Shown: piece by piece, positions 25,514 to 62,545 of the stretch
How the letters are laid out: each line of letters opens with the position of its first letter
Position numbering within the stretch: position 1 is the first letter of the stretch
Assembly (NCBI GenBank): GCA_030604525.1
Contig: JAUVVQ010000001.1
Coordinates: 1-64,000, forward strand
Direction of reading: 5' to 3'
Origin: Phycisphaerae bacterium
GTDB taxonomy: Bacteria; Planctomycetota; Phycisphaerae; Sedimentisphaerales; Anaerobacaceae
DNA: 64,000 bases
Program-made: the position numbers and the translations under genes
The notes under the pieces: generated by a model
What the model saw: only the letters and a program-made list of their open reading frames with translations
Database searches by the model: none
Told to the model about the DNA's origin: nothing

Positions 25514-27760
25514 TTACTTTGTCTTTTTTTTTCGATGGGGTTTTGCGGGGATGAGATTCAAGTGTCTTGCGGGAACATTAACGGAAGCTATTTGGACTGT
25601 CATAGCTGAGCCGAACTGGATTTTACGTCGAGATTTTTTGTTGTAAATGCATTGTGTTTTTTGCTTGAATCTCCATCTGCCGGGACCTAAATCTTCGAAT
25701 CTGATGAGTCCTTCGATACCGAATTTTGGAATATTAACGAAGGCGCCGAAGGAAGTCAGGCCGGTGACGAATCCTTTGTGAATCTCGCCGAGGTGTTTGG
25801 TTAACATCTGAAGTATCAATACAGTTTTGAGGTCGTTTTCGGCATCTTCAGCCCGCTGTTCCATGAAGGAGAGGTGTTTTCCGATTTCGGTCAGGTCCTG
25901 GTTCGGGTCTATAGCATTAAAATCGTTTTTCAGGAAAGCATCTACGATTCTATGAACCAATAAATCGGCATATCGTCTTATCGGGCTGGTAAAATGACAA
26001 TATTTAGATGAAGCGAGGGCGAAATGTCCTATGTGAAGCGGCGTATATTGAGCTTTTTCCAAAGACCTTAAGACAAGCAGATTTACAGCGAGAGACAAAT
26101 CGGAGCCGGCGGCGGCCTGCAGGACTTTCTGTATGGCCTTTCGGTCAGGGTCGTTCGGTAATGCAACGCCCAATGTTCTTAAAGCTTTCGAGAGGCCTTG
26201 CATACTCAAGCTAACGGGCTTAGGGTGTATTCGCCTTATAAAGGGGACATTTCGTTTATCCAGGATGGAAGCTACAGCCTCATTTGCCTCAACCATAAAC
26301 ATTTCTATGATGGTGTGGGGATAGCTATCGTCGGCAGGGGAAACATCCTCAACGAGTCCTTTTTGATTCATTTTAATTTCCGTTTCCGGCAAATCGAGGT
26401 GCAGCATTCCATTTTTTTCTCTTCTTTTTTCAATATCTCGGCTAAGCGCTTCCATATTTTTGAGCAAGTCAACGACTTCGTGTTTTACATTTTCGGCGTT
26501 GCCTTTGAGAGCTTTGTCAGCCTGCCTGTAAGTGAGTCTCTGGGTTGAGGAGATAAGCGAGTTTGCAAGTCTTCTTTTGAGGACGTTTGCATTCCTGTCG
26601 TAAGTCAGATATATGCTTTTACAGAAGCGTTTTTGAGCCGGCTGAAGCGAGCATATTCCGTTACTCAGGAGCTCCGGTATCATAGGAATGGTTTTCTCAG
26701 GCAGGTATATACTGTTGCCTCGGAGCTTTGCCTCGTTATCCAAAGGTGTCTGTGGAAGGACAAAATTGGTTACATCCGCTATGTGCACACCAAGTATCCA
26801 GTCGCCCTTTTCATTTTTTTCCAGACTTATGGCATCATCGAAATCTTTTGCATCTTCCGGGTCGATAGTTATAACAACTTTTTCGGTAATGTTTTCCCTG
26901 TTATCATTTTTTTCCAGACTTATGGCATCATCGAAATCTTTTGCATCTTCCGGGTCGATAGTTATAACAACTTTTTCGGTAATGTTTTCCCTGTTATCAT
27001 TTTTTTCCGGGTTGAATTGTGAAGCCACTTTTTTTGCCTGTTCGAGGCAGGTGTCATCGAATTCGCAGGGCAGGTGGAATTGGTGAATCACTGAATTTAT
27101 TTCGGTTTGGTATTTTCCCGCCCTTCCGAGGACATCAACAATTACTCCTCGAGGCGGATAATTTTTAGTTGGCCAGGAGATTATCTGAACCACAACTTTG
27201 TCATTTTGTTTTGCGTTTTTTGCATTTACATCATCGACACGGATGGATTCAGTAAAGGCAGAGCCGTCAGGCTGCACGGCCCAGCCGTCAGATTTTTGAA
27301 TTAAAGTACCGACAAATTTACTCCTGCCCCTTTCAAGAATCTCTACTATACGGCCGGAATATTTTTTTTGTTCTTTTTCTCGATAGCCATGTCGAGATTT
27401 TCCGGAAGCGTGGACGACTTCTGCGGCGACAATATCGCCGGTCATTGCATCAGCGGTATTATTTGGAGGTATGAACAAATCGCCATGAGAATTTATTTCA
27501 AGCGGAGCTACAAAGCCAAATCCCTTCTGGTTTGCCCTGAACTTTCCGATAATCCGTCCTGAAGGATAAGGGAGCGTAACCAGGTTATTTGATGCGATTA
27601 CAACCCGTCCCGAATTTTGCAATTGCTCTACGGCAGTTTTAAACTGCGAGTAATTTTGTTTGCTTACCTCTAAAGCCGCAGCTAACTGTCTGGTTTTTAA
27701 GGGTGTGTAATCGCTGTGTTTCAGAAGATTAATTATTCTATTTTTGAAAAAATCCGGCAT
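25514..27760 (-). CDS. rnr: Ribonuclease R (RNB family), with internal catalytic-motif duplication
   Basis: FRANQKGFGFVAP cold-shock domain; DPEDAKDFDDAISLEK RNB catalytic motif (twice); GNSIYLPEKTIPMIPELLSNGICSLQP; C-terminal S1 domain. Confidence 0.93.
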   Translation of the reverse strand: MPDFFKNRIINLLKHSDYTPLKTRQLAAALEVSKQNYSQFKTAVEQLQNSGRVVIASNNLVTLPYPSGRIIGKFRANQKGFGFVAPLEINSHGDLFIPPNNTADAMTGDIVAAEVVHASGKSRHGYREKEQKKYSGRIVEILERGRSKFVGTLIQKSDGWAVQPDGSAFTESIRVDDVNAKNAKQNDKVVVQIISWPTKNYPPRGVIVDVLGRAGKYQTEINSVIHQFHLPCEFDDTCLEQAKKVASQFNPEKNDNRENITEKVVITIDPEDAKDFDDAISLEKNDNRENITEKVVITIDPEDAKDFDDAISLEKNEKGDWILGVHIADVTNFVLPQTPLDNEAKLRGNSIYLPEKTIPMIPELLSNGICSLQPAQKRFCKSIYLTYDRNANVLKRRLANSLISSTQRLTYRQADKALKGNAENVKHEVVDLLKNMEALSRDIEKRREKNGMLHLDLPETEIKMNQKGLVEDVSPADDSYPHTIIEMFMVEANEAVASILDKRNVPFIRRIHPKPVSLSMQGLSKALRTLGVALPNDPDRKAIQKVLQAAAGSDLSLAVNLLVLRSLEKAQYTPLHIGHFALASSKYCHFTSPIRRYADLLVHRIVDAFLKNDFNAIDPNQDLTEIGKHLSFMEQRAEDAENDLKTVLILQMLTKHLGEIHKGFVTGLTSFGAFVNIPKFGIEGLIRFEDLGPGRWRFKQKTQCIYNKKSRRKIQFGSAMTVQIASVNVPARHLNLIPAKPHRKKKTK
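26815..27000. repeat. Exact 93-bp tandem duplication inside rnr
   Basis: Copy boundaries recur as TCATTTTTTTCC at 26811, 26904 and 26997; the two intervening 93-bp units are identical; 31 codons each. Confidence 0.95.
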
Positions 27761-58877: not shown

Positions 58878-60542
58878 TTGGGGTGTATCGGAGCAGGGAT
58901 GATGTCTGTAAAGTTAAGTCGCAAAAAAGTTGTTTTGTGCTGTCTTTTGACAGCAATATTGTTTGTTCTGGCAAACGGTTGTATGAGTCCGGATGAGTAC
59001 AAAGCTGATGCCGACAAGGAGGTATATAAAGTCATCGAGGACAAATGGGAGGGTAGTTTCGGTGAGAGGACCAATTATAAGATATCCGATTCGGAGCCGT
59101 CGCCCAATGATATTCAAACACCAAATCCGGCTGGAATCTCAGGGGTACTGGCACTCGCAGAGGCGGCAGCGATAGCAACAGCGAACAATCGGGACTACCA
59201 ACAGCAAAAAGAATCACTGTATGGGGAAGCTTTGCGTTTGACCGGCACCCGACATCAGTATGCTATACAATGGTTCGGTGCAATTGATGGTAAATATACA
59301 GATGATAAAGGCAGCGGGTATGAAGAGTTCAAAGTCGGAGGCGAAGGAGACGAAATAGGCGTAAGCGATGAGGAAGTTTTCAGCAACGGCGTTCTTTTTT
59401 CAACAAATCTTGCGCTTAACTGGGCCCGTTTTCTGACAGGGGACCCCCGGAATACACTCGGCTCGGTTTTAAGCGGGGATATAACAGTTCCATTGCTGGG
59501 AAATGGGGCCGGCAAGCAGGCGTGGGAAACTTTAACCCAGGCGGAACGAAGTATGCTATACCAAATACGAACATTTAACCGATACCGCAAAACGTTCGTG
59601 GTAGGCATTATAAATGCTTACTACGGGGTTTTACAACGAAGAGATTCGGTAATAAACGCCAGGAATAACCTGGCAAGGAAGCAGGATTCTACCAAGCGGC
59701 TTGAAATGGAAGCAGAGTGGGGGCGTAAGGCGCAGCTTGACGTGGATGAAGCGAAACAAAGTGAATTGAGTGCTCAAAATCAATACGTGGCAGCTCAACG
59801 AGGCTATGAATCTGCGCTGGATAATTTTAAAGTAAAGCAACTTTCCCTGCCAACAGATGCAAATATTTCGCTGGACCCCAACGAGTTGAAGGCATTGGAA
59901 GAGATAAAGATAGGCAAACCCGACTTCACTTTGGAAGCATCGATTGATACGGGCTTAACACAACGGCTGGATTTGGCGAATACTTACGATAAAATTGATG
60001 ATGCAGTTCGCAATCTCGAACTTGCGTCTGAAGGTCTTGGCCCGCAGGTGAACATTAGCGGAAGTATTAATGTAAACTCAAGAGCAGATACTGATTTTAG
60101 CCAGTTGCAGTTTCAGGAAGGTAGTTACAGCACAGGTTTTGGTGCGGATTTGCCGTTTGACCAAAAAGATGAGCGTAACTCTTACCGGAGTGCTTTGATA
60201 ACCTTGACGCAGGCACAGAGAAGTTATGATAAAGCCCGTGACAATATTGAACTAACGATAAAAGACGATTACCGTCAGGTTCTTGAGACGGCAGAGCGGT
60301 ATCGAATACAAAAGATGAGTCTGGGATTAGCTCAAAGCCGGGTAAGGAATAATGAGATGATGCTTGAGATAGGCCGAGGGACAGTGCGTCAATTACTGCT
60401 GTCTCAGGATGCACTACTGGATGCGCAAAACGCAGTTATCAGCGCCTTGATAAGCCATACGATGAAAAAGTTAAATTTTTACACAAATGTAGGTGTTTTA
60501 CAAGTAAGACCGGACGGAATGTGGGAGATAAAAGCTAAATGA
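58878..60542 (+). CDS. TolC-family outer-membrane efflux protein (start may be 58899)
   Basis: Lipobox-like FVLANGCMSPDEY; AEAAAIATANNRDYQQQKESLYGEAL; repeated coiled-coil TolC pattern. Confidence 0.88.
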   Translation: MGCIGAGMMSVKLSRKKVVLCCLLTAILFVLANGCMSPDEYKADADKEVYKVIEDKWEGSFGERTNYKISDSEPSPNDIQTPNPAGISGVLALAEAAAIATANNRDYQQQKESLYGEALRLTGTRHQYAIQWFGAIDGKYTDDKGSGYEEFKVGGEGDEIGVSDEEVFSNGVLFSTNLALNWARFLTGDPRNTLGSVLSGDITVPLLGNGAGKQAWETLTQAERSMLYQIRTFNRYRKTFVVGIINAYYGVLQRRDSVINARNNLARKQDSTKRLEMEAEWGRKAQLDVDEAKQSELSAQNQYVAAQRGYESALDNFKVKQLSLPTDANISLDPNELKALEEIKIGKPDFTLEASIDTGLTQRLDLANTYDKIDDAVRNLELASEGLGPQVNISGSINVNSRADTDFSQLQFQEGSYSTGFGADLPFDQKDERNSYRSALITLTQAQRSYDKARDNIELTIKDDYRQVLETAERYRIQKMSLGLAQSRVRNNEMMLEIGRGTVRQLLLSQDALLDAQNAVISALISHTMKKLNFYTNVGVLQVRPDGMWEIKAK

Positions 60543-62545
60543 GAAATAATAATAACAAAAAGAATAGGGCAAAAAGGCAAGGGAGTAAAGGTGGATTTAT
60601 GAGGAACACTAAGTGGTGGTGGGTAGTCTTAATTCTGGTGATAACAGCGGCGGGGTCGGTATTTTCCTTTGCGTTGATAAAAACAAGGAGTTCCAACGAT
60701 TCGTCTGGGAATCTCAGCACATTCACCATTCGCAGAGATAATTTGCTGGTAACTGTTACCGAAGGGGGCAGCATCAAGGCGCGTAATATGAAACAAGTTA
60801 AAAACGAGGTGGATGAAAGGCAGATGACTATAATGGAGATAGTCGATGAAGGGACTTATATAAGCAAGGAAGATGTCAATAACGGCAAAGTGCTTGTAAA
60901 ACTGGATTCTTCTGCTTTGAAGGATAAAGTAACACAAAGCAAAATGAGCTTTGCCAGCGCCGAGTCGAGCTATTTGCAGGCGCAAGAGGGCTTAACAATT
61001 CAGAAGAACCAGAATGAAAGCACTATTGCCGCAGCCAAGCTGAAAGTTAAATTTGCTCTGATGGACCTGCAAAAATATATCGGGCAGGAAATAGCTGACC
61101 GAATCATCGAAGATGTAAACAAGGCAGAAGAAATAACGTCATCTTATATAAATTCCCTCCTTTCCGACCCTAACAAATTAGGCGGAGGAGCTTCCCAAAA
61201 GTTAAAACAATACCGGGATAGCATTGCCCTTTCAGAACAACAATATAAGAAAGCAGAGAACCAGCTAATCGGGACACAAAGACTCCGCGACGCAAATTAC
61301 GTCTCCGCACTTGAATTGACACAGGATAATCTGAATGTTGAAAGCAGTAAATACAAGAAAGAGCAGGATGCACTTTCACTTGAGCTATTTAAAAGATATG
61401 ACTTTCCGAAGCAATCACAAAAGCTTTTAAGCGACTACAATGAATCGAAGCGTGCGTTGGTAAGGGCTCATGCTGAGACGCGTTCCAGACTTGCTCAAGC
61501 GGATGCGCAACTTAAAAACGCAGAATCAAGATACGAGAATGAAAAGAAAGACCTTGACGACGACCAGCAAGACTTAGCGAAGTGTATAATCAAGGCCCCT
61601 GCGTCTGGTTTAGTAATTTACGGGACCGGTTCAAGCGAGGATGCGTTCAGGCGTATGCGCGGCAGCGGTATCATTGATGAAGGCGAAACGGTTTATCGCG
61701 GCCAAGTTCTTATAACACTGCCGGATATGTCGAAGATGGAGGCAGAAGTTCAGGTTCACGAATCATCTGTGAATAAAATAAAGCCGGGTCAACGCGCCCA
61801 GATAGTTATGGATGCTTTTCCTGATATAACCCTGGATGGTGAAGTTGCCCAAATTGCTCCTCTTCCGAGCACAACTCGCGGCTGGTTTAATCCGGATACA
61901 AAGGTTTATGATACCAAAGTAAATATAAACGGGACGTATGATTATCTCAAGCCGGGGATGTCGGCCAAAATTACAATTTTTGTTGAGCAGTTAAAAAATG
62001 TTATCATAACCCCTATTCAGACAGTATCAAATCAGATGGGCAAGAAGATATGTTATGTTCTGGCATCGGAAACTCCGAAGCGAAGAGAGGTCAAGACGGG
62101 TTCATACAATGATACCTTTGTTGAAATTACTGACGGTCTTAAGGTCGGGGAGAAAGTGCTTTTAAGTCCTCCTAAAGTTACAGGAGCAAAATCTCAGTCT
62201 GAAGCACAACCAAAAGAAGAGATTGAAGGCAGCACAAGCAAGCCCGAAAGTGAAGGCAGCACAAGCAAGCCCGAAAGCCAAGGCAAAGGTAAAAGTGGCA
62301 GGCCGCAAGGACAAGGATTTGAACTTACGGATGAAATGACAACTCGTATATTAGGTTATATCGAACAGTCAGACCCCAACAAAGCTGAGGAACTTAAACA
62401 GCTTAAAGAAAGCGACCCTGAGAAGTTTAAAACCGAACTTAGAACACTTATGCGAAACCAAGCACAGCAATTCAGACGAGGTAGAGGTGATGGACAAAAG
62501 CGAGGAAGCAATGCAGCAGGTCGCCGAAAACGGCAAGCTCAATAA
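60539..62545 (+). CDS. HlyD/MacA-type periplasmic adaptor
   Basis: N-term TM; FTIRRDNLLVTVTEGGSIKARN; IIKAPASGLVIYGTG; AEVQVHESSVNKIKPGQRAQIVMDAFPDITLDGEVAQIAPL. Confidence 0.9.
   Translation: MRNNNNKKNRAKRQGSKGGFMRNTKWWWVVLILVITAAGSVFSFALIKTRSSNDSSGNLSTFTIRRDNLLVTVTEGGSIKARNMKQVKNEVDERQMTIMEIVDEGTYISKEDVNNGKVLVKLDSSALKDKVTQSKMSFASAESSYLQAQEGLTIQKNQNESTIAAAKLKVKFALMDLQKYIGQEIADRIIEDVNKAEEITSSYINSLLSDPNKLGGGASQKLKQYRDSIALSEQQYKKAENQLIGTQRLRDANYVSALELTQDNLNVESSKYKKEQDALSLELFKRYDFPKQSQKLLSDYNESKRALVRAHAETRSRLAQADAQLKNAESRYENEKKDLDDDQQDLAKCIIKAPASGLVIYGTGSSEDAFRRMRGSGIIDEGETVYRGQVLITLPDMSKMEAEVQVHESSVNKIKPGQRAQIVMDAFPDITLDGEVAQIAPLPSTTRGWFNPDTKVYDTKVNINGTYDYLKPGMSAKITIFVEQLKNVIITPIQTVSNQMGKKICYVLASETPKRREVKTGSYNDTFVEITDGLKVGEKVLLSPPKVTGAKSQSEAQPKEEIEGSTSKPESEGSTSKPESQGKGKSGRPQGQGFELTDEMTTRILGYIEQSDPNKAEELKQLKESDPEKFKTELRTLMRNQAQQFRRGRGDGQKRGSNAAGRRKRQAQ
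62224..62277. repeat. Perfect 27-bp tandem repeat x2 in the adaptor gene
   Basis: tgaaggcagcacaagcaagcccgaaag repeated exactly, encoding EGSTSKPES twice. Confidence 0.95.

Follow-up and report, generated by a model that had tools for sequence, protein, structure and literature searches.

The window analyzed here is a stretch of 64,000 nucleotides from a Phycisphaerae bacterium (GenBank assembly GCA_030604525.1, contig JAUVVQ010000001.1, positions 1 to 64,000 of the forward strand), and our subject is an exact tandem duplication of a 93-bp unit within its rnr gene. By sequence, this gene encodes ribonuclease R (RNase R), with predicted 3'-5' exoribonuclease activity on structured RNA: the product (an N-terminal region, two cold-shock domains, RNB, S1 and a Lys-Arg-rich tail, in that order) scores 680.5 bits against TIGR02063, above the curated equivalog cut-off of 597.85, contains matches to Pfam RNB, CSD2 and OB_RNB, and aligns with the solved RNase R structure PDB 8cdu at E = 2e-119. 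These matches bear out the identity proposed in a preliminary description made from the letters of the sequence. The catalytic role of the RNB aspartates is established for the RNase R family (PMC12320835); those of copy 2 of the unit (D300, D306, D308 and D309, spaced D-x5-D-x-D-D) are invariant across 66 relatives, and apart from the duplication the gene is intact and complete in its catalytic residues. The 2.35-Mb, 82%-complete assembly yielded no further RNB-domain gene, and backup by a second functional RNB gene was rejected on that result. The features of the locus are as follows.

25514..27760, minus strand: rnr, ribonuclease R, 748 amino acids (TIGR02063; Pfam RNB, CSD2 and OB_RNB; PDB 8cdu)
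26916..27008, minus strand: duplication unit copy 1, the N-terminal copy (about E252-L282); exact repeat; predicted local distance difference test (pLDDT) score below 50 at residues 258-277
26823..26915, minus strand: duplication unit copy 2 (about E283-L313); exact repeat; runs on into the native downstream RNB sequence, and relatives align here
26997..27008, minus strand: 12-bp box GGAAAAAAATGA, ancestral site 1 (NPEKND), bounding copy 1 on its 5' side
26904..26915, minus strand: 12-bp box GGAAAAAAATGA where copy 1 meets copy 2, a novel junction
26811..26822, minus strand: 12-bp box GGAAAAAAATGA, ancestral site 2 (SLEKNE), bounding copy 2 on its 3' side

The array spans 26811-27008 and holds 2.13 exact copies of the unit. 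Tandem Repeats Finder (period 93, 2.1 copies, 100% matches, 0 indels) and self-comparison at an offset of 93 (a run of 105 consecutive identical bases) agree with the exact tandem duplication, the peptide and the coordinates first reported for it. The unit is 31 codons long, the reading frame of 748 residues stays open across both copies, and a D-x5-D-x-D-D cluster lies in each, so the in-frame duplication of the Asp motif also stands as described. In sampled stretches totalling 0.95 Mb of the genome, no exact tandem repeat other than this array has a period longer than 53 bp, indicating that the array is not a product of chance.

Boundaries of the array and its single-copy ancestor

For comparison we collected approximately 109 rnr loci from 38 genera and from GTDB contigs, nearly all of them planctomycete metagenome-assembled genomes with record titles that are mostly Phycisphaerae or Sedimentisphaerales; the same gene is included twice in some cases, and 88 sequences are distinct in the region compared. 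Every one of these loci carries one Asp-cluster motif, and none carries two. In a class-wide search of 298 genomes with a 114-residue probe spanning both copies, matches were obtained in 260; among the matches listed, only that of the window itself covers the probe from residue 1, and those of other genomes start no earlier than probe residue 14 and so contain a single motif. On these two results we rejected a duplication that is old or shared across the family. As far as the compared sequences reach, the duplication is private to the lineage of the window and therefore probably recent, and the single indicator of its age is the lack of any difference between the copies over 93 bp. The recent expansion suggested in the preliminary description is consistent with this identity and with the single motif of the relatives examined.

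The box GGAAAAAAATGA (coding strand; it reads TCATTTTTTTCC on the plus strand) lies exactly at all three boundaries of the array, the junction between the copies being DDAISLEKNDNREN. When one unit is removed, the box is the sole direct repeat of at least 12 bp in rnr, the distance from the end of CSD2 to TIDP becomes 43 residues (as in 84 of 88 relatives) and that from TIDP to GVHIAD becomes 26 (as in 88 of 88); because both flanks then have the length standard for the family, the two outer boxes belong to the single-copy ancestor. They encode (P)EKND and (L)EKNE, and the longest in-register match between the two box sites in relatives is 8 bp. In shuffles that permuted synonymous codons while keeping the protein and its codon usage, a repeat of at least 12 bp within 300 bp appeared in 10% of trials, so that the box is a plausible product of chance and a natural hot spot, and the two boxes were identical in 6%; together with the match of at most 8 bp in relatives, these frequencies indicate that the hot spot arose in this lineage by ordinary drift in AT-rich codons.

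Array ends that coincide with the box in this way are characteristic of slipped mispairing or microhomology-mediated duplication and not of random joining, and the earlier suggestion of a slippage or recombination site at the unit boundaries is upheld by them. From the ends we infer an event in which drift in Lys/Asn-rich codons would have produced two GGAAAAAAATGA boxes 93 bp apart, and slipped-strand mispairing or template switching between them (a RecA-independent, microhomology-mediated event) would then have yielded the observed product. Two other causes were considered and rejected. Folded as a single strand, the unit fares no better than shuffled sequences (z 0.67 and 0.82), which speaks against slippage driven by a stem-loop and makes secondary structure unnecessary; a dispersed palindromic repeat was dismissed because the one family tested is absent from the window and the unit is itself rnr sequence.

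Position of the two copies in the protein

Identity of sequence leaves both copies eligible for the RNB core. Were copy 2 to take that place, the extra 31 residues would fall in the linker between CSD2 and RNB; were it copy 1, they would fall in the hairpin that follows DDAI. The linker measures 43 residues in 84 of the 88 relatives and 47, 50, 65 or 79 in the others (insertions of 4, 7, 22 and 36 residues), whereas the hairpin after the motif is 26 residues long in all 88, with no insertion. An AlphaFold2 model built from a 67-sequence alignment (mean pLDDT 84.4) matches RNase R structures throughout in Foldseek; it places copy 2 in the core, with block-mean pLDDT values of 87-96 over residues 291-330, and leaves most of copy 1 disordered (pLDDT below 50 at residues 258-277). 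The loop-out of 31 residues that the preliminary description had proposed to look for by modelling would fit the disorder of most of copy 1, in a model biased toward copy 2 because the alignment had already placed the relatives on that copy.

Linker lengths and model together suggest that copy 2 is likely to supply the catalytic core with its aspartates D300, D306, D308 and D309, and that the extra 31 residues probably dangle harmlessly in the flexible CSD2-RNB linker. The segment added to the active site, as proposed earlier, is the less likely arrangement on the same evidence: length variation in the 88 relatives lies entirely in the linker, and the model keeps copy 2 in the core. Since the 31 residues would be added at a linker that naturally varies in length, the change is probably near-neutral and prone to revert, and its functional weight is probably small.

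In three relatives (L004, G021:C217; L015, G015:C20:28990; L091, G314) an in-frame insert sits in this same RNase R linker and belongs in each case to a different dispersed palindrome-like repeat, present in the respective genome at at least 21 sites, in 24 copies and in 13 copies. Small palindromic elements, reminiscent of the Rickettsia palindromic elements, thus seem to have landed in the linker repeatedly.

Competing explanations

We consider it likely, taking all parts jointly, that the array is a recent in-frame slippage or microhomology duplication between GGAAAAAAATGA boxes in an RNase R that most likely still folds with copy 2 in place, and that the change is probably near-neutral; the duplicated enzyme would draw its catalytic aspartates from copy 2 and carry copy 1 as 31 flexible linker residues. 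Several points weigh against this account. The duplication is seen in one assembly only; the preference of AlphaFold2 for copy 2 is not independent of the alignment, and the alignment-free model reaches a pLDDT of only 35. Identical sequences would also allow the reverse arrangement, in which copy 1 sits in the core and copy 2 loops out from the hairpin.

That the array is an artefact of assembly or of a mixed population, with single-unit dominant cells and a junction contributed by a minority variant or by a false path through the assembly graph (or, relatedly, with more than two copies collapsed), we regard as unlikely but worth serious attention. The genome is a draft (89 contigs, 82% complete), and the 105-bp exact repeat is close to the lengths of short reads and k-mers, so the copy number is not secure. 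However, the 12-bp microhomology at the junction is shorter than the k-mers usual in assembly, and a single-copy template should not create such a junction; a random join is not expected to finish on an exact 12-bp homology; the array lies 26.8 kb inside a contig of 116,642 bp; and the sampled 0.95 Mb contains no other exact tandem repeat of period greater than 53 bp, which argues against general over-duplication. Harm to RNase R, by misfolding or a misplaced Asp strand, would make the array a transient or slightly deleterious allele, perhaps in a lineage in which the enzyme is dispensable. Two identical copies could compete for one core position, the absence of drift between them fits a short-lived allele, and no compensating RNB protein was found in the assembly; but the gene is otherwise intact with its catalytic residues complete, the insertion of 31 residues is within the range of 4-36 tolerated at the linker, and the duplication is in frame (chance 1/3). 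We judge this improbable.

Far less probable still is that the identical Asp-cluster segments compete to give two RNase R conformers of differing activity, one looped out in the linker and the other in the active-site hairpin, together with a copy number that changes reversibly in the population. An adaptive or phase-variable expansion, in which a reversibly changing repeat number tunes RNase R activity, we hold to be the least credible proposal: no copy-number variants were seen, none of the relatives examined (the loci collected and, among the matches listed, the class-wide search) has a repeat at the site, and no mechanism connects a switch with the length of the linker. A unit of 31 codons keeps the frame at any copy number, which rules out on/off switching by frameshift.

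Comparison with known repeats

The array is a known kind of mutation, an in-frame slippage or microhomology duplication, at an unusual place. Among 42 blaKPC variants, in-frame tandem duplications of 3-84 bp were ascribed to slippage or microhomology (PMC12593533); these are likewise exact and private, and the larger ones were put down to microhomology-mediated events. In contrast to them, the rnr unit is 93 bp long with a 12-bp box, and a catalytic motif is duplicated in a housekeeping exoribonuclease under no known selection. In Mycobacterium tuberculosis the copy number of tandem repeats can be phase-variable (PMC12817950), and there too the units are short and their number can change by slippage or recombination, but those repeats lie mainly in promoters and their variation was seen, whereas the rnr array is coding and in frame, with none seen. 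Relative to typical RNase R (TIGR02063; PDB 8cdu, 5xgu and 7dic), the protein shares the domain order, the RNB Asp cluster and the overall fold, and differs in having a second 31-residue copy of the Asp cluster ahead of the RNB domain. A literature search returned papers on circular RNA and none on tandem duplication within a bacterial rnr.

If real, the array is a clean natural case in which a chance 12-bp repeat in charged-residue codons led to the in-frame duplication of a catalytic motif, with no obvious harm since the unit has its ends in a flexible linker and in a turn, and it would offer a test of whether a natural enzyme can accommodate identical core segments that compete. We view it as a tidy but ordinary mutation of well explained origin, which would bear on RNase R biology at large only if copy-number variation or two conformers were demonstrated.

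Two shorter repeats were also recorded. In the same genome, a 53-bp exact tandem duplication with 9-bp terminal homology (L147:1820-1934) lies in an apparent dispersed non-coding repeat. Within the window, a 27-bp in-frame tandem repeat at 62224-62285 (EGSTSKPES twice, 94% matches) belongs to a MacA/HlyD-like membrane fusion protein (60539-62545), where it falls in a C-terminal region of low complexity; the gene for this protein lies upstream of that for a MacB-like ABC transporter (both families named by eye).
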